In this document: positions 55,997 through 63,786 of the stretch, in pieces
How positions within the stretch are numbered: the stretch's first letter is position 1
How the letters are laid out: every line of letters starts with the position of its first letter
Assembly (NCBI RefSeq): GCF_030269645.1
Contig: NZ_BSTR01000004.1
Location: forward strand, 1-64,000
From: Actinokineospora sp. NBRC 105648
GTDB taxonomy: Bacteria > Actinomycetota > Actinomycetes > Mycobacteriales > Pseudonocardiaceae
Direction of reading: 5' to 3'
DNA: 64,000 nucleotides
Translations under genes and position numbers: made by a program
The notes under the pieces: model-generated
What the model saw: the letters and a program-made list of their open reading frames with translations, nothing else
The model's database searches: none
What the model was told of the DNA's origin: nothing

Positions 55997-57204
55997 GGCC
56001 AGGTCGGCCGGGACTCGTCGGAGGTGTCCGCGGACTCGTCCGAGTCGTCGGTGGCGTTGGGCACCGACCCGGTGTCGTCGAGCACGTCCACCTCGTCCGG
56101 CTCGGTCTCGCCCTCGTGCAGCAGCGACCGGATACCGGCGTTGAGCACGGCCAGCAGCGGCACCGACAGCAGCGCGCCCGCGATGCCCGCGGCGAGCAGG
56201 CCGACGGCGATGGCCAGCACCACGGCCAGCGGGTGCAGCCGCACCGCGCGGCCGAGCAGCCAGGGCTGCAGCACGTGGCTCTCGATCTGCATGACGCCCA
56301 CCACGATCGCCAGCACCACCAGCGCCGAGACGAAGCTGTTGGCGACCAGCGCGATCAGCACCGCCACGGTGCCCGCCAGCAGCGCGCCGATGATCGGGAT
56401 GAACGCGGTGAGGAAGACCAGCGCGGCCAGCGGGATCACCAGCGGGACGCCGACGATCCACAGCCCGACGCCGATGCCCACCGCGTCGAACACCGCGACC
56501 GCCGCGGTCGCCCGCACGTAGCTGACCAGCGAGGAGAAGCCCCGCCTGCCCGCGACGTCGACCCGGTCGCGCACCTGGCCGGGGATGGCGCGCACCACGA
56601 AGCCCCAGATCCCGCCGCCGTCGAACAGGAAGAAGATCAGGATGAACAGGGTCAGCAGCAGCCCGGTGAGGACCTCGCCGATGGTGGCCGCGGTGGTGAT
56701 CGCGCCCGAGGTGATCGCCGACTGGTTGGTCTTGATGGTGTTGATCGCGTTGTCCAGGTAGGCCTGGATCTGGTCCTGGCGCAGGTGCAGCGGCCCGGTG
56801 CTCAGCCAGGCCCGGATCGTGTCCAGGCTGTTGTTCACCTGGCTCTGCAGCTGCGGCAGGCCGTTGGTGAACTCGGTGATCACGAAGGTGAGCACGCCGC
56901 CGACCACGGCCAGGCCGCCGATCAGCACGATCGCGGTGGCCAGCGAGCGGGGTACCCGCCACTCGACCAGCTTGCCGACCCCCGGGGCCATCAGCGCGGC
57001 CAGCAGCAGCGCGATCGCCACCGGGATCACCACCGCGGCGAAGTAGCCCAGCAGCCAGATGATGACGTACAGCGCTCCGATGATCACCAGGAACCGCCAG
57101 GACAGCGCCGCGCTGACCCGGAGCCCCTTGGGCACCAGAGGGGTGACGTCGTTGCTCGTGAGCGTGCTGCGGTGCTTGAGGCCCGCGACGCGGTTTCTGG
57201 TCAT
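55993..57204 (-). CDS. AI-2E family transporter-like membrane protein (403 aa)
   Basis: PF01594 family: paired helices near the N-terminus (FLVIIGALYVIIWLLGYFAA), a central soluble region, then LFILIFFLFDGGGIWGFV, and later FIPIIGALLAG and ESHVLQPWLLGRAVRLHP, the family hallmarks. The acidic C-terminal tail is Asp/Ser-rich. Members act as exporters or ion antiporters; TqsA exports AI-2 in E. coli. First gene of the four-gene operon with the histidine kinase. Confidence 0.9.
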   Translation of the reverse strand: MTRNRVAGLKHRSTLTSNDVTPLVPKGLRVSAALSWRFLVIIGALYVIIWLLGYFAAVVIPVAIALLLAALMAPGVGKLVEWRVPRSLATAIVLIGGLAVVGGVLTFVITEFTNGLPQLQSQVNNSLDTIRAWLSTGPLHLRQDQIQAYLDNAINTIKTNQSAITSGAITTAATIGEVLTGLLLTLFILIFFLFDGGGIWGFVVRAIPGQVRDRVDVAGRRGFSSLVSYVRATAAVAVFDAVGIGVGLWIVGVPLVIPLAALVFLTAFIPIIGALLAGTVAVLIALVANSFVSALVVLAIVVGVMQIESHVLQPWLLGRAVRLHPLAVVLAIAVGLLAAGIAGALLSVPLLAVLNAGIRSLLHEGETEPDEVDVLDDTGSVPNATDDSDESADTSDESRPTWP

Positions 57205-57241
57205 CGCCGATCACGGTAATCGGTCGAACCGGTCTCCGGCG

Positions 57242-59509
57242 ATGAATGTCTCTGATGTGATTGCGCTCGTGACCGCGTTCGTCCCGCTGGACCAGCTGAC
57301 CGCCACCGAGCGGGCGGTCCGGGCCGCCTTCACGACCGGGGAGCGACTGGACCTGCGCGCCGCTGCGGACCGCCAGGTGCGCGGCGAGGTGCTGGCCGCG
57401 CTGCTGGTCGGGGCCTACCCGCTGGCCGCCGGGGCGATGCCCGCGCTGCGGCTCGACCACGCCGAGGTGACCGGCCGGTTCGACGTCGAGGGCCGCGCCA
57501 TCGAGCACGTGATCACCCTGCGGCGCTGCCGGTTCGCGCGCATCCCGGTGCTGCGGATGGCCCGGCTGATCGCGCTGAGCCTGCGCGGCTGCTGGCTGCC
57601 CGGTCTCTACGCGCGCAACCTCAGCGTCGGCAGCGACCTCCTGCTCGAAGCGGGCTTCACCTGCGAGGGCGTGCTCGACCTGACCGACGCCGCGGTCGAG
57701 GGCACGCTCCGGCTGACCGACGCGGTGCTGAACAACCCGGGCATGGCCGCGCTGCTCGGCGCCCGGCTGCGGGTGACCGGCTCGATTCAGGCCGCCGCCT
57801 TGCGGGCCGCGGGCGAACTGCGGCTGCGCGGCGCGAACGTCGGCGGCAGCGTGCACCTGACCGGCGCCCGGCTCGCGCACCCGTCCGGCACCGCCCTGGA
57901 GGCGACCGGGCTGACCATCGCGGGCAACCTGTTCTGCGACACCGGCGGCGGCTGCTTCGACGCGGCCGGGACGGTGATCCTCTCCGGCGCCCGCATCGGC
58001 GGCGACGCGGTGTTCTCCGGCGCGCGGCTGCACGACGCCCGCGACGGCGACGGCCAGGTGCTGGTCCTGCCGCACGGCTCGGCCGTGGACCAATACGTGC
58101 TCGACGCCGACCGGCTGCGCGTCGACGGCGACGTCAAGCTCGACGCCGGGTTCACCGCGGGCGGCACGGTCGGCCTGCGCGGCGCGCACATCGGCGGCCA
58201 CCTCCTGCTGTCCGGCGCCACCATCGGCCACCGCGCGGCGGTGGCCGACCTGGCGAAGGCGTTCACCGAGGGGCGGGCGGTCACCCGGGTGCCGGTCGCC
58301 CTGGTGGCCGACGGCGTCGAGGTGCGCGGCGACGTCGAGGCCAGGGGCAGCACGAACGGCAAGATCGACTCCGACGGCGACGTCCGCACCGCGTTCCGCG
58401 CCTACGGCCAGGTCCGCCTGGTCGACGCCCACGTGCACGGCAGCGCCAGCCTGTCGCGCGCCCGGTTGCGCGGTCCGGCCATCGACGTGCTCTTCGCCGA
58501 CCGGCTGCGCGTCGGCGGCACGCTGTTCCTGCGCAAGGTCCGCGCCAGCGGCTCGATCCGGCTGCAGAACGCGCACATCGGCTCCAGCCTGGACTGCTCG
58601 GGCGCCCGCCTCACCAAGCCGCGCCTGCGCGCCGACGGTTCGCTCAAGCCGTCCCTCGACGCGCGGGTCGCCACCGTCGGCAAGGACCTGCTGTGCAGTC
58701 ACGGGTTCCGCGCCATCGGTGGTGTGCGGGTGCGGTTGGTCGAGGTGGGCAAGATGGTCACCTTCGCGGGGGCTCGGCTCGGCGGCCGCAGCGGACCCGG
58801 CCACCCCGTCGCCGACAAGGTCCTGTCCGCGTACGGCCTCACCGCGCAAGAGCTCGTCCTCATCTTCCCCGCAGACCGCCCGCCTCTTGGTGCCGTTGTC
58901 CTCACCCGCGCGTCAGCCGTGTCGGTGATCGATGGCGCGGGGCTGTGGGCCGCGCGCGGGGGTGTCGAGGTCGAGGACTTCAGCTTCACCGCGCTGACCG
59001 CTGTCCCCGAGGTCTCGGTGCGCACCCGCCTGCTGTGGCTGCGCAAGGTGCAGCCGGACTTCGCCCCCGGGCCGTACGACCGCCTCGCTGCCGTCTACTC
59101 CCAGGGCGGCCAGGAGGAGCTCGCGCAGCGAGTGCACCTCGAGCGCCAGCGCCGCCGCTACGCCGAGCTGCACGCCGCGGGCCGGTTGTGGGGGCGGCTG
59201 CAGGACGCGACCGTCGGCTACGGCTACCGCCCGTGGCTCGCCATGATCTGGCTCGCGCTGTTCTGGCTGCTGGGCACGCTGTGGTTCAGCTGGCACGCGA
59301 TGGACAAGCTCGACAACGACGTCAACCCGGTGTGGAACCCGCCGCTGCTGGCCACCGACCTGCTGCTGCCGATCATCGACCTGGGCCAGGACAACAAGTG
59401 GCGGATGGTCGGCGCGTCCCAGTGGATCTCCGGGGTGCTGATCGCGGTGGGCTGGGTGCTGGCCACCACGGCGGCGACCGGGGCGACCCGGGTGCTCAAG
59501 CGCTCGTGA
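57242..59509 (+). CDS. Large beta-helix-like membrane protein (755 aa)
   Basis: Residues ~60-560 contain many copies of an approximately 20-residue pattern (GxLRLxGAxIGGxLxLxGA; for example LRLRGANVGGSVHLTGARL and VGLRGAHIGGHLLLSGATI), suggesting a right-handed beta-helix like pentapeptide or bactofilin folds. Near the C-terminus two membrane segments follow (LAMIWLALFWLLGTLWF and GVLIAVGWVLATTAATGA) after a basic region (LERQRRRYAELH). Similar proteins are often labelled membrane-associated oxidoreductase, but no cofactor motif is visible. ATG 57242; divergent from the AI-2E gene. Confidence 0.75.
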   Translation: MNVSDVIALVTAFVPLDQLTATERAVRAAFTTGERLDLRAAADRQVRGEVLAALLVGAYPLAAGAMPALRLDHAEVTGRFDVEGRAIEHVITLRRCRFARIPVLRMARLIALSLRGCWLPGLYARNLSVGSDLLLEAGFTCEGVLDLTDAAVEGTLRLTDAVLNNPGMAALLGARLRVTGSIQAAALRAAGELRLRGANVGGSVHLTGARLAHPSGTALEATGLTIAGNLFCDTGGGCFDAAGTVILSGARIGGDAVFSGARLHDARDGDGQVLVLPHGSAVDQYVLDADRLRVDGDVKLDAGFTAGGTVGLRGAHIGGHLLLSGATIGHRAAVADLAKAFTEGRAVTRVPVALVADGVEVRGDVEARGSTNGKIDSDGDVRTAFRAYGQVRLVDAHVHGSASLSRARLRGPAIDVLFADRLRVGGTLFLRKVRASGSIRLQNAHIGSSLDCSGARLTKPRLRADGSLKPSLDARVATVGKDLLCSHGFRAIGGVRVRLVEVGKMVTFAGARLGGRSGPGHPVADKVLSAYGLTAQELVLIFPADRPPLGAVVLTRASAVSVIDGAGLWAARGGVEVEDFSFTALTAVPEVSVRTRLLWLRKVQPDFAPGPYDRLAAVYSQGGQEELAQRVHLERQRRRYAELHAAGRLWGRLQDATVGYGYRPWLAMIWLALFWLLGTLWFSWHAMDKLDNDVNPVWNPPLLATDLLLPIIDLGQDNKWRMVGASQWISGVLIAVGWVLATTAATGATRVLKRS

Positions 59510-59526: not shown

Positions 59527-59620
59527 CTTCGATCAGTTCTGCACGGGCACCAGGGGTACTGACTCAGGGTGACCTGTGGACACACTCTGTGTTCGTCACA
59601 CGATCCGGTGGGCATGTTGA

Positions 59621-59636
59621 GTCACGCGTGCATAAC
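59621..59636 (+). promoter_or_regulatory. MtrA-like direct repeat
   Basis: GTCAC and ATAAC separated by six bases, one mismatch per half from a GTAAC-N6-GTAAC-type direct repeat described for the response regulator MtrA. It lies about 80 bp upstream of the first of two surface-protein genes. Weak by itself. Confidence 0.3.
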
Positions 59637-59714
59637 GGTGCGTCCCGGTGCCAGTGTCTTCGTCGTACGGCCAGTCGCCGTGCGCATCCCGGATCGGAAG
59701 GCGCCAGGTACCTC

Positions 59715-60518
59715 GTGGACAAGCAGCAGCCGAAGGAGACGCCCGCACTGCGGCGCGTGCTCTCTCGCACCCTGCTCGTCCTCGGCGGCACCGTCGCCTC
59801 GACGGCCGCCGCGTGGGCCATCTCGACGGCCACCGCGGCCGCCGACGTCGCCACCGACCTGCAGGACGACCTGCGCTCCGTCGTCGACTCGGTGCCCGCG
59901 CTCGACGCGCCCGCACTGGGCGGCCCCAAGGCGCTGGTCACCGACCTCACCGACCGCGTGGGCGCCCTCATCGGCGAGCCGATGAGCGCCCCGCTGGCCC
60001 CCGTGGCCATCGCCGCGGTCGACCAGGTCGGTCGCGACCTCGCCGGTCGGTTCACCCCCAGGATCGACCTGCCCGCCAGTGGCGCGGTCGAGACCGTGGT
60101 CCCCGACCACAGCCCCGTGCTCGGCGCCACCGAGCTGCCCGGCCTGATCGACACCGATCTCGCCGCGCCGCCCGCCGCCGAGCAGCGGGTCCAGGCCCAG
60201 CCCGGACCCGTCGGCGCCGACCTGCCCGTGGCGGACGCCGGACACCGCGCCGTCAGCCACGTCCTGACCCGGCGCGGTTCCCCCGAGCCCCGCCACGAGG
60301 CACCGGCCCTGCCCACCGGCCCCAGTCCGCTGGCGCCCCTGAGCATGCCCGCTCCCGCCAACTCGGGTCACACCGCGAACAGCGCGGCGGACGCCAACGG
60401 CCTCGGCCAGGTGGCCACCGCCATCGCGGGCACCGACACCACCAGCCGTGCCCTGTGCACCGCCCAGGTCCGGGTGCCCGCCGTCATCGACGCACAGCCT
60501 GGCGTCACGCCCGACTGA
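59715..60518 (+). CDS. Hypothetical secreted protein (267 aa)
   Basis: Basic N-terminus, then a hydrophobic signal segment (TLLVLGGTVASTAAAWAISTATAAA, residues ~18-42) with a plausible cleavage after Ala. The mature part is Ala/Pro/Asp-rich without a recognised domain, and has one cysteine near the end (ALCTAQVRVPAV). GTG 59715. It is encoded 187 bp before the chaplin-like gene on the same strand, so the two may act together at the cell surface. Function unknown. Confidence 0.7.
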   Translation: MDKQQPKETPALRRVLSRTLLVLGGTVASTAAAWAISTATAAADVATDLQDDLRSVVDSVPALDAPALGGPKALVTDLTDRVGALIGEPMSAPLAPVAIAAVDQVGRDLAGRFTPRIDLPASGAVETVVPDHSPVLGATELPGLIDTDLAAPPAAEQRVQAQPGPVGADLPVADAGHRAVSHVLTRRGSPEPRHEAPALPTGPSPLAPLSMPAPANSGHTANSAADANGLGQVATAIAGTDTTSRALCTAQVRVPAVIDAQPGVTPD

Positions 60519-60555: not shown

Positions 60556-60705
60556 GTCATGCGCGCACGTCAGCCATGCCCCAGGCCGTGCTCTCCCGCG
60601 GGACCACTCCCGCACCCCAATTGCGGGTGACCTCCTTCCCCGACGCCTCGCGTCCGGTCACCCGCGTCCTCTCCCGATCAGGGAAAACCGAAGGAGAATC
60701 TCCAG

Positions 60706-63700
60706 ATGCAGACCTGGGCTAAGCGCGGTTTCCAGACCGCGTTGGTCACCGGTGGCTTGTTGATGCTGGGTACCGGCATCGCCTCCGCGGACGACGTCGT
60801 CAACCCCGATGCCACGCCGAACTCGGCGCTGGACATCAAGGCCGTCGTCCCCGTCAAGATCCAGAACAACCCGATCGGCGTTGGCGGCGGCCGTCAGGTC
60901 GACGCCCCCGCGGTGAACCGCACGATCGCCGTCTCGCCCCGCGACGTGCTCAAGGCGGCGGGCGTCGAGAAGCTGGTCGCCCCGACCGTCGACGGCCCGT
61001 CGAGCAAGCTGCTCGACAACGAGAACGGCCCGCTGCGCGGCAACAAGATCGTCGGCACGGTCATCGTGCCGGTGGACGCCTCCGGCAACGCGATCGGCCT
61101 GCTCGGCGACGCCAAGGCCGTCAACGACTCCACCCAGAGCGTCACCGAGGACCGCCCGATCGTCACCGACGGGTCGGACCACGGCCTCGCGGGCAACGTC
61201 GTCGACCTCGACTACACCGCGCCGGTGCAGCTGACCGGCAACGCCGTCGCCGTCGGCGGCAACGCCGACACCGAGAACACCGCGTCGCAGACCGCCACCG
61301 CGGGCGGCGACACCACCACCAACGGCAACCACGGCGCCCTCGCGGGCAACGTCGTCGCCGGGCACGCCACCACCCCGGTGGGCGTCAACGGCAACGCCGT
61401 CGGCGCCATCGGCAACGCCTCCGCCCAGTCGGTCACCAGCTCGGACAGCCTGGCAGGCGGCGTGATCAAGACCGACGGCGCCGACAGCGCCGTCTCGGGC
61501 AACGCCGCGGGCGTCCCGGTGTCCGCCCCGGTCCGCGCCAGCGGCCAGGCGATCGGCGTGCTGGGCAACTCCGAGACCAACTCGGCGTCCACCACCACCG
61601 CGCAGGCGGGCGACCAGAGCCCGGACTTCAACGGCAACCCGACCTACATCCACACCAACGGGGCCGACGGCGCCACCGTCGCGGGCACCGCCGCGCAGCC
61701 CGCCATCAGCACCCCGATCACCGCCGACTGCGGCTCGATCGTGGGCGTGGGCAACGCCGACTCGCTGTGCACCTCGGACGTGTCGAGCAACGCCGGTGGC
61801 GGCAACCGCACCTTCGGCAACGACAGCGTGCTCGGCGGCACGATCATCGGTCAGTCCACCGGTGCCCCGGTCAGCGTGATCGGTGCCGCGGGCGGCGCCA
61901 TCGGCAACGCCACCACCGACCAGACCAACACCGTCAACACCGGCGCGGGCGGCGCGAACCGCACCCGCGGCCACGACAGCGTGCTCGGCGGCACCCTGGT
62001 CAACTCCCCGGTCAGCAGCCCGGTCGACGCCTGCGGCACCAGCGCGGGCGCGGCGGTGAACAGCGACGTCGCGTGCAGCAACACCTCCACCACGGGTGCG
62101 GGCGGCGACGCGGGCTCCACCGGCGACGACTCGGTCGGCGGCGGCAACGGCGTGACCACGCCGATCTCCAACCCGGTCGAGCTGGTCAACAACAACATCG
62201 GTGGCGGCGGCGACTCCGCGATCGAGACCTCGGAGACCAAGGTCTCCCGCGCGGGCGGCGACGCCAACACCGCCGACGACGACGCGGTGCTCGGCGCCAA
62301 CCTGGTGCAGGTCCCGGTCGCGGGCCCGACCCAGCTCTTCGGCAACAGCGCGGGCGTGCTCGCCAACACCGACTCGGCCACCACGCTGGACAACACCGTG
62401 GAGGCGGGCGGCACCTCCGAGGCCTCCGGCACCGGCGGCACCGGCTCGGGCAACATCGTGCAGGCCCCGACCACCCTGCCCGCCCAGGTCTTCGGCGCGG
62501 GCGGCACCGTGGGCGGCAACGGCACGGCCAACGGCAGCAACCTGACCTCGTCGTCCTCGGGCGGCTCGGCCACCACCGACGGTGTCGACGGCAACCTCGC
62601 GGGCAACGTGGTGGACGCGCCGCTGGGCAACGCCGCCCAGGTGTTCGGCGACTCGGTCGCCGTACTCGGCGACAACGACGCCGCGGCTGACAACACCACC
62701 GACCTGGTCGCCGGTGGCACCACCGAGACCAGTGGCAAAGACGGCAACATCTCGGGCAACATCGTCAAGCCGCAGGCCCTGGTCCCGCTGCAGAACGGCG
62801 CGACCGCGGTCTCCGGCGTCGGTGGCGACAACACCGCCACCGCGGGCAGCACCACCACCGGCGCGGTCGGCGGCGACGCCACCACCAACGGTGACAAGGG
62901 CTTCCTCGCGGGCAACCTGTTCGACGTCCCGGCCGCGGCCCTAGCGCCGGTGCACGGCGACGCCGTGTCCGCGGTGGGCAGCGACGCGCAGGCCACCTCC
63001 GAGCACGCCACCTCCGGCTCGGTCGGCGGCACCTCCACCACCAGCGGCAAGCAGGGCAGCCTCAACGGCATCCTGCTGACCGCGCCGACCAAGGTGAAGG
63101 CCCCGGTCAAGGACGCCGAGGTCGAGCTGGCGGGCGACGCGGACGCGGACGCCGACCAGACCGAGAACGTCACCGTCGGCGAGGCCAGCAACAACGTCCC
63201 GGACGAGGACCACCTGCGCCTGCCCACCGGTGGCCTCGGCGCGACCGAGCTGCCGAAGCTGCCGCTGCTCTCCACGCTGCCGCTGCAGGGCGGGCTGCCG
63301 CACTTCAACGGCCTGCCCACCGGTCGCTCCGCCTACGGTGCCGACCCTCTGACCGGCCTGCTGGGCGGTCTCCCGGTGAGCCTGCCCACCGCAGGCCTGC
63401 CGACCGGTGCCATCGGCGGCCTGCCGCTGGGTGGCGCTGCCGCTGCCCGCGACCTGCCGGTGAACGGCCTCGGCGGCACCAACCTGCTGGGCGGTCTGCT
63501 CGGTGGCGGTCTCCCGGTGAGCCTGCCCACCGCGGGCCTGCCCACCGGTGCCGTCGGCGGCCTGCCGCTGGGCGGCGGGCGCTCGATGGCCCGTGAGCTG
63601 CCCACCCCGGCGGCCCTGCCCACGACCGACGACCTCACCGGGTCGTTCTCCGGCAACCTGTTCCAGGCCCCGGCCCTCCCGGTGCAGACCCCGGCGCTGT

Positions 63701-63786
63701 CCACTCTGGACACCCCGTCGGCGTCGTCGCTGACCGACACCCGGTCCAAGCTGGCCGGCCTGTTCGGGAACCTCCCGATCGGCTGA
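60706..63786 (+). CDS. Giant chaplin-like repeat secreted protein (1026 aa)
   Basis: Signal peptide 1-28 (ALVTGGLLMLGTGIASA then DD). From residue ~112 to ~830 the protein is about 14 tandem repeats of ~51 residues. The pattern is GNxVxxPxxxPVxxxGNAVxVxGN, followed by a Ser/Thr/Gly/Asp-rich spacer. This resembles the chaplin domain of Streptomyces hydrophobic aerial-hypha proteins (GNVxxVPVxxPVNVCGNTVxVIG). Repeats 5 and 7 keep two cysteines at chaplin-like positions (DCGSIVG...SLC, ACGTSAG...VAC); the others have lost them. The last ~200 residues are Leu/Pro/Gly-rich with an internal duplication. No LPXTG or membrane anchor is present. ATG with AAGGAG 9 nt upstream; bounded by a strong hairpin downstream. 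Confidence 0.82.
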   Translation: MQTWAKRGFQTALVTGGLLMLGTGIASADDVVNPDATPNSALDIKAVVPVKIQNNPIGVGGGRQVDAPAVNRTIAVSPRDVLKAAGVEKLVAPTVDGPSSKLLDNENGPLRGNKIVGTVIVPVDASGNAIGLLGDAKAVNDSTQSVTEDRPIVTDGSDHGLAGNVVDLDYTAPVQLTGNAVAVGGNADTENTASQTATAGGDTTTNGNHGALAGNVVAGHATTPVGVNGNAVGAIGNASAQSVTSSDSLAGGVIKTDGADSAVSGNAAGVPVSAPVRASGQAIGVLGNSETNSASTTTAQAGDQSPDFNGNPTYIHTNGADGATVAGTAAQPAISTPITADCGSIVGVGNADSLCTSDVSSNAGGGNRTFGNDSVLGGTIIGQSTGAPVSVIGAAGGAIGNATTDQTNTVNTGAGGANRTRGHDSVLGGTLVNSPVSSPVDACGTSAGAAVNSDVACSNTSTTGAGGDAGSTGDDSVGGGNGVTTPISNPVELVNNNIGGGGDSAIETSETKVSRAGGDANTADDDAVLGANLVQVPVAGPTQLFGNSAGVLANTDSATTLDNTVEAGGTSEASGTGGTGSGNIVQAPTTLPAQVFGAGGTVGGNGTANGSNLTSSSSGGSATTDGVDGNLAGNVVDAPLGNAAQVFGDSVAVLGDNDAAADNTTDLVAGGTTETSGKDGNISGNIVKPQALVPLQNGATAVSGVGGDNTATAGSTTTGAVGGDATTNGDKGFLAGNLFDVPAAALAPVHGDAVSAVGSDAQATSEHATSGSVGGTSTTSGKQGSLNGILLTAPTKVKAPVKDAEVELAGDADADADQTENVTVGEASNNVPDEDHLRLPTGGLGATELPKLPLLSTLPLQGGLPHFNGLPTGRSAYGADPLTGLLGGLPVSLPTAGLPTGAIGGLPLGGAAAARDLPVNGLGGTNLLGGLLGGGLPVSLPTAGLPTGAVGGLPLGGGRSMARELPTPAALPTTDDLTGSFSGNLFQAPALPVQTPALSTLDTPSASSLTDTRSKLAGLFGNLPIG

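Follow-up and report, generated by a model that had tools for sequence, protein, structure and literature searches.

The tandem chaplin gene

The DNA window analysed here (64,000 nucleotides, positions 1 to 64,000 of contig NZ_BSTR01000004.1 of Actinokineospora sp. NBRC 105648, a member of the Pseudonocardiaceae) harbors on the forward strand, at 60706..63786, an open reading frame for a 1026-residue protein that matches the chaplin family PF03777 (E 1.8e-13) and has relatives at the same locus in other genomes. Chaplins are a model bacterial functional amyloid of aerial growth; related bacteria use the chaplin unit singly, as a water-repellent coat, and the Pseudonocardiaceae include antibiotic-producing mycelial bacteria. 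We regard the protein as a probable surface member of the chaplin family, a single secreted chain that joins 14 chaplin units, with a presumed role in the coat.

The tandem array occupies residues 110-836 and comprises 14 units with a period of 51 residues, eleven of them being 51 residues long, two 52 and one 62. Scored with a leave-one-out profile made from the other 13 units, every unit exceeds all 200 of its own shuffles. On the forward strand the array consists of unit 1 (61033..61185, residues 110-160), unit 2 (61186..61338, 161-211), unit 3 (61339..61491, 212-262), the 62-residue unit 4 (61492..61677, 263-324), unit 5 (61678..61830, 325-375, with cysteines 342 and 355), unit 6 (61831..61983, 376-426), unit 7 (61984..62136, 427-477, with cysteines 443 and 457), unit 8 (62137..62289, 478-528), unit 9 (62290..62442, 529-579), unit 10 (62443..62595, 580-630), unit 11 (62596..62748, 631-681), unit 12 (62749..62904, 682-733), unit 13 (62905..63060, 734-785) and unit 14 (63061..63213, 786-836), the last being the weakest (11.4 bits versus 8.6 for its shuffles). 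The protein has exactly these four cysteines. It starts with a conserved putative signal peptide, MQTWAKRGFQTALVTGGLLMLGTGIASA (60706..60789, forward strand, residues 1-28), which by inspection has a charged start, a hydrophobic core and an ASA end, and it finishes with a Leu/Pro/Gly-rich region (63214..63783, forward strand) that carries the motif PALSTLD and lacks a membrane anchor.

For comparison, 109 loci with a protein above 250 bits were retained; one (L117) was dropped for lack of a recognised start, and merging duplicates among the rest left 93 proteins. Most of the set derives from the best 80 of 132 relatives found by a collection scan in which the string MQTWAKRG was among six patterns. 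These 80 named loci belong to Actinokineospora, Amycolatopsis, Lentzea, Saccharothrix, Actinosynnema, Umezawaea, Prauserella, Kutzneria and similar genera, with a few metagenome-assembled genomes and one record titled Nocardia. No transmembrane-like stretch is present in the last 60 residues of the window protein, and a C-terminal membrane stretch is missing from all 94 proteins (the window's and the 93 others). An L[PA]xTG string occurs within the last 80 residues of two of the 94, both without a membrane stretch, whereas a PALxxLD-type motif lies within the last 60 residues in 64. Sortase anchoring was looked for in these proteins and not found, and 14 units without a C-terminal transmembrane stretch indicate a variant rather than a classic long chaplin. 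A first-pass annotation of the sequence had already proposed the open reading frame, about 14 repeats of about 51 residues, paired cysteines in two repeats with none in the rest, and a missing sortase signal, and all of these are borne out.

Relationship of the units to chaplins

Against the whole window protein, PF03777 scores 50.6 bits (cut-off 21), and it is matched at E<=1e-3 by 38 of the 42 family members scanned, window protein included. Since Pfam's own seed risked circularity, an independent profile was built from 61 classic chaplin domains. These were picked with a pattern of which the cysteine pair is a part, and all come from one chaplin-rich genus (f20 g68) that we take for Streptomyces. 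The profile gives 32.5 bits on the array; reversing the array brings the score to -11.6, and shuffled arrays reach no more than 8.0 (885 of 1000 shuffles reported). In the opposite direction, a profile of the units matches all 61 classic chaplins at 20.9-35.1 bits and their shuffled versions at no more than 8.7 (1218 of 1220 shuffles reported). The unit consensus, LSGNIVxAPVAxPVQVFGNAVAAGGNA, can be compared with the classic chaplin pattern SGNVVQVPVHVPVNVCGNTVNVIG; it most often has F at the position of the chaplins' first cysteine.

Several results weigh against this kinship. Seven stretches of the window protein match PF03777 at E<=1, and none reaches E<=1e-3 alone; the best, residues 514-559, straddles units 8 and 9. 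A six-frame search puts one unit above the PF03777 cut-off (22.3 bits), and the classic-domain profile finds nine stretches on the array with only 2.4-14.2 bits each. The score of the whole protein is thus the sum of weak units. Moreover, 12 of the 14 units lack the cysteine pair; according to the passages on S. coelicolor in PMC5618241, all chaplins of that species except ChpE have it, so that it is not strictly required. Neither a solved structure at E<=1 nor an NCBIfam entry matches the window protein.

Weak single units, together with a strong compositional bias (Gly 17%, Ala 14% and Thr 12% of the array), could mean that the array is a low-complexity Gly/Ala/Thr/Asn repeat and owes its chaplin score to composition. 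This is hardly credible: the shuffled and reversed arrays fail, as do the shuffled units, and the motif positions are invariant in a 50-sequence alignment. The shuffle controls rule out such an artefact. By profile comparison the units are chaplin relatives. The first-pass annotation had drawn the chaplin relationship from the motif; the two-way profiles with their controls and the 38 matching members sustain it for the protein as a whole, and PF03777 does not sustain it at E<=1e-3 for any repeat taken singly.

Distribution and age of the array

The window protein finds matches in 148 of 200 genomes of the family at E<=1e-3 and in 107 at E<=1e-30 (counted from the table, the window's own genome included). 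In score and length, the matched proteins of genomes of the same genus equal those of A. auranticolor and A. inagensis, which places the window in Actinokineospora. Fourteen units are detected in 55 of the 94 proteins, 13 in 33 and 15-18 in six; 13 may be an undercount in some of these, and the three 15-unit proteins each start with a match near residue 42 that is probably no full unit. Arrays of the 14-unit proteins are 35-61% identical to that of the window. When each window unit is compared with the 54 fourteen-unit relatives, its best match is the unit of the same index in 460 of 756 cases (54 expected by chance), and 60 random pairs of relatives give 568 of 840. The correspondence varies along the array: for eight units the index agrees in 34-52 of the 54 relatives, and for units 5, 6, 7, 11, 12 and 14 in only 11-21. 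Because units tend to match by position across species, the array seems to predate the Pseudonocardiaceae genera sampled. A recent repeat expansion is unsupported for the same reason.

Cysteine pairs in the 54 fourteen-unit relatives fall in units 1, 4, 5, 6 and 7 only, and no cysteine was seen there in units 2 and 9-14; 11 of the 94 proteins have none at all. PF03777 itself is found at E<=1e-3 in 74 of the 200 genomes, mostly within long frames; the window's own genome is not among the 74. Short chaplins with strong scores (E<1e-7, frame below 150 residues) are scarce, being found in two of the 200 genomes with at most 30 candidates scored per genome. These two classic short chaplins lie at L136 and L137, and two weaker short-chaplin frames of 105 and 62 residues were also seen in genomes of the family. 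In the window's genome, where all 84 candidates were scored, nothing beyond the array exceeds the PF03777 cut-off.

A conserved putative signal peptide

The signal peptide has a mean identity of 0.94 among the 93 relatives, versus 0.39 for the array, the value for the signal being inflated by the use of MQTWAKRG as one of the six search patterns. A search of 60 genomes found it 60-94% identical in array holders other than the window. At four-fold sites, third-base identity is 0.605 for the signal (19 sites) and 0.636 for the array (333 sites), and 8086 of 10000 random draws from the array reach the signal's value. As synonymous sites are no more conserved than in the array, the constraint acts on the peptide, and a constraint on RNA or DNA is unsupported.

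Some of this conservation may be a chaplin trait, since classic chaplins and some tandem chaplins carry signals with a distant similarity. With the signal profile, the median for classic chaplin signals is 7.9 bits (300 segment-shuffled controls: 95th percentile 6.9, maximum 16.4). Ten of 27 tandem chaplins from other families exceed every control, reaching up to 30.7 bits, and 11 score 1.1 or less. The sole usable control, a secreted non-chaplin neighbour found in 13 of the 80 loci, has identities of 0.28-0.38 per ten residues over its first 40 residues and 0.04-0.88, mostly 0.3-0.8, over the rest; a Peptidase_S11 control gave one match in 16 genomes and was not used. The window's genome encodes a second secreted-looking protein (L132 1967-4312, G000:C66) with a weakly similar signal (E 6.1e-5), long Gly/Asn/Ser-rich repeats and no Pfam match.

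The upstream partner gene and the locus

Directly upstream of the array gene, at 59589..60518 on the forward strand, lies a gene for a probably secreted protein that ends in QPGVTPD and has homologues at the relatives' loci. Its start is uncertain, and a GTG at 59715 or 59757 may suit better than 59589. The codons of the tail and the stop (60495..60518, forward strand) belong to a pattern that recurs upstream of signal-peptide matches. The protein has no match in Pfam or NCBIfam. Neither this gene nor the unusual signal peptide was mentioned in the first-pass annotation.

A profile of this partner finds a homologue at 91 of 94 loci, and the tail is exactly QPG-x-[TN]-PD in 89 of the 91. The three misses are L067, which has almost no flank in the stretch examined, L139, where the QPG-x-[TN]-PD tail is present, and L144, where TBLASTN matches the partner. 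As a DNA pattern, QPGxTPD followed by a stop has 44 matches in 41 of 60 genomes of the family and none for the backward control. All but one of the 44 are followed, 119-519 bp downstream and on the same strand, by a signal-peptide match (E<=0.1). A signal match is present in 51 genomes, ten of which lack a match to this pattern, which excludes the QPGxNPD form. Searching 147 other genomes of the class gave two pattern matches, both with TGG instead of a stop, and two for the backward control, so that a partner outside the family was rejected for the genomes searched. The tail pattern thus occurs almost only just upstream of the signal-peptide gene, which ties the partner to the module. Its own signal region is better conserved (0.50-0.65) than its middle (0.06-0.46). 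We infer that the partner may help in export, assembly or retention of the array protein.

The array gene sits between a block with a regulator and an AI-2E-type transporter and a block with RpsF, RpsR, RplI and DnaB, the names of these neighbours being our reading of the sequences. Of the 80 named loci, 79 keep the AI-2E-type gene, 72 the response regulator and 67 DnaB; the array is inherited at a fixed locus in Pseudonocardiaceae. The protein encoded at 57059-59509 has a pentapeptide-repeat match (PF13576), and its like is found near the array gene in 38 of the 80 loci.

Two elements precede the array gene on the forward strand. The first is an intergenic inverted repeat, GGGTGACC...GGTCACCC (60625..60663), whose arms recur in relatives: arms of at least 8 pairs, with G-T allowed, are present in 20 of 80 upstream regions, window included, and the GGGTG..CC/GG..CACCC form has compensated variants in relatives. 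The second is a short hairpin, TCCC-GATCA-GGGA (60672..60684), directly 5' of the ribosome-binding site; relatives have a CCC/GGG hairpin with a GCAA or CGCAA loop at the equivalent place in 35 of 80 regions, and the word CCGCAAG occurs in 41 of 80 versus 0.7 in shuffles. It is possible that the elements in 60625-60684 act in control through the 5' leader. A promoter scan gave no sigma-70-like site and Rfam no match above the gathering score.

Loci with eroded arrays or other mature proteins

In 11 genomes a similar signal stands at the same locus before another mature protein (class b in seven genomes, c in two and d in two), which also weighs against the coat reading favored below. These forms are at L119-L123, L125, L126, L128, L130, L131 and L133 (syntenic loci L139-L149). 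Signal identity is 16-23 of 28 residues in ten of the genomes; G043, the remaining one, has an unclear start and a 65% match over residues 7-29. The unit profile scores these proteins below their best shuffle. BLASTP linked none of them to the array, a weak negative because it also missed two eroded arrays that the unit profile recognised. With composition correction off, weak array hits appeared on the strand opposite to the genes and are read as composition artefacts. Pfam at E<=0.1 matched neither the six class b/c/d proteins scanned nor the two eroded arrays. The regulator and the AI-2E-type gene are present at all seven class b loci, where DnaB was not within the 20 kb fetched; at class c and d loci DnaB was also seen. 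The PALSxLD-type C-terminal motif is found in both class c and both class d proteins, as in 64 of 94 array proteins, and is absent from class b; a DT..RI-like C-terminal tail is found in three of seven class b proteins and in nine of 94 array proteins.

Shortened arrays, with five and seven detectable units, occur in G022 and G032 (L134 and L135; syntenic loci L150 and L151). An rpoB tree of 30 genomes unites the genomes with full and with eroded arrays in one clade (99/97), within which the eroded pair is nested (97/96), so a single erosion of the array with retention of the signal would be the simplest reading for these two genomes. Classes b, c and d each form one clade. The arrayed genome G016 lies in an unresolved fork outside the array clade, and the two outgroup rows do not make up one side of a branch. 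For classes b, c and d, loss of the array and its never having been gained are both compatible with this tree.

These loci raise an alternative in which signal and QPGxTPD partner are a conserved export or assembly module, the array is one interchangeable cargo, and the locus may serve general envelope biogenesis. The 11 genomes with mature proteins not above shuffles, and a signal constraint at the level of the protein, speak for it. We nevertheless regard it as unlikely: arrays prevail (the 107 of 200 genomes noted above), the distantly similar signals of classic chaplins may make the conservation a chaplin trait, the tree does not decide between loss and original absence in classes b, c and d, and the failure of BLAST to link these proteins to the array counts for little.

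A candidate coat protein

The reading that we favor, as probable, is a chaplin-family surface protein made of linked units. The conserved signal peptide would export the linked chain, aided in export, assembly or retention by the co-encoded partner. Hydrophobic unit cores, as in short chaplins, would alternate with hydrophilic spacers, and the cores, packed as beta-strands, could form a fibrillar and amphipathic layer that covers the hypha or spore. Linkage would take the place of co-assembly by many short chaplins, and multivalency or the partner could replace the sortase anchor. The fold, assembly, location and aerial-growth role given here are what we infer from sequence; the pre-polymerised amyloid coat of the first-pass annotation is plausible.

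Hydropathy and periodicity bear on this in both directions. The unit cores have a GRAVY of +0.51, close to the values of +0.33 and +0.57 for two of the family's short chaplins, and the unit tails -0.74. Counting against an amphipathic layer, the whole array has a GRAVY of -0.1, beta-type periodicity at unit positions 13-24 is only slightly in excess of shuffles (0.79 versus 0.69), and at positions 4-12 it is below them (0.69 versus 0.85). Hydrophilic spacers, a net GRAVY near zero and weak periodicity would suit a chaplin-derived array that is a non-amyloid adhesin, either wall-spanning or of the matrix, acting as a stiff repetitive stalk or biofilm protein rather than as an air-interface specialist. 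Tandem chaplins of families f38 and f35 add to this, as seven of eight have a sortase-type motif and seven of eight a C-terminal membrane stretch, like wall-anchored adhesins. Such an adhesin appears rather doubtful, however, given that a C-terminal membrane stretch is missing throughout the 94 proteins, that the unit cores are as hydrophobic as the two short chaplins, and that so few of the 200 genomes have strong short chaplins among the candidates scored.

A broader proposal, which we put forward tentatively, is that many Pseudonocardiaceae build their hyphal coat by a dedicated two-gene module, in which the QPGxTPD partner would export, nucleate or retain a protein with a near-invariant signal whose usual cargo is the 14-unit chaplin. 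Several genera would keep signal, locus and partner with the middle of the cargo replaced or eroded, so that the conserved unit would be the module and not the chaplin. The two-gene module was not seen in the chaplin-rich genus of f20.

A long linked array beside a partner gene suggests a different way of building a coat in a soil actinomycete. The conserved 14-unit chaplin is a candidate for the missing coat protein of Pseudonocardiaceae, and it makes testable whether tethered units can replace many short chaplins; a natural linked array may also be of use for biophysics and materials work. The partner, for its part, is an unannotated and tightly linked gene with a ready hypothesis.

Comparison with known systems

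The passages of PMC5618241 on chaplins describe one or two domains, with a sortase signal in the long forms. In S. venezuelae the chaplins are controlled by the sigma factor BldN (PMC4255298). The part of that paper covering its reciprocal-best-hit survey, which took in about 100 actinobacterial genomes, places chaplin-like genes in streptomycetes and in some few further genera, and names no Pseudonocardiaceae among the holders there. PF03777 has been used in Streptomyces, as a passage of PMC9640686 attests. The titles and opening lines of abstracts listed by a literature search, with subscription papers mostly outside its coverage, describe neither this protein nor many-unit chaplins nor the partner.

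Compared with ChpA-H of S. coelicolor (PF03777, formerly DUF320), the window protein shares the unit by two-way profile, the hydrophobic core and, presumably, secretion, and the signal peptides are distantly similar. ChpA-H are described in the passages cited with no more than two domains each and, where the form is long, a sortase signal, whereas the window protein has 14 units and no anchor; it further differs in having cysteine pairs in two units only, a fixed locus and a partner gene.

A search of 296 genomes of the class gave 29 with a match to the window protein at E<=1e-5, of which two belong to its own genus. The other 27 belong to families f18 (19), f38 (7) and f35 (1) and yield 27 distinct proteins of 4-10 units (L185-L212). 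Like the window array, these have tandem units that match the same profile, so repetition itself is not unique to the window protein. The statement of the first-pass annotation that chaplins are short or two-domain agrees with the passages of PMC5618241 and does not extend to these families. In contrast to the array proteins, which lack a C-terminal membrane stretch, 23 of the 27 have one and 15 have a LAxTG/LPxTG-type motif; in 18 of the 19 f18 proteins at most one unit is without a cysteine pair. QPGxTPD with a stop was found neither in the stretches fetched for the three families nor in their genomes among the 147 others searched. Tandem chaplins are thus a broader kind, of which the 14-unit, anchorless and cysteine-poor form is the Pseudonocardiaceae variant.

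Finally, the signal peptide recalls the YSIRK-type signal peptides of Gram-positive surface proteins, which are likewise conserved beyond their cargo. It differs from them in sequence and in being tied mainly to one locus, not to many surface proteins.

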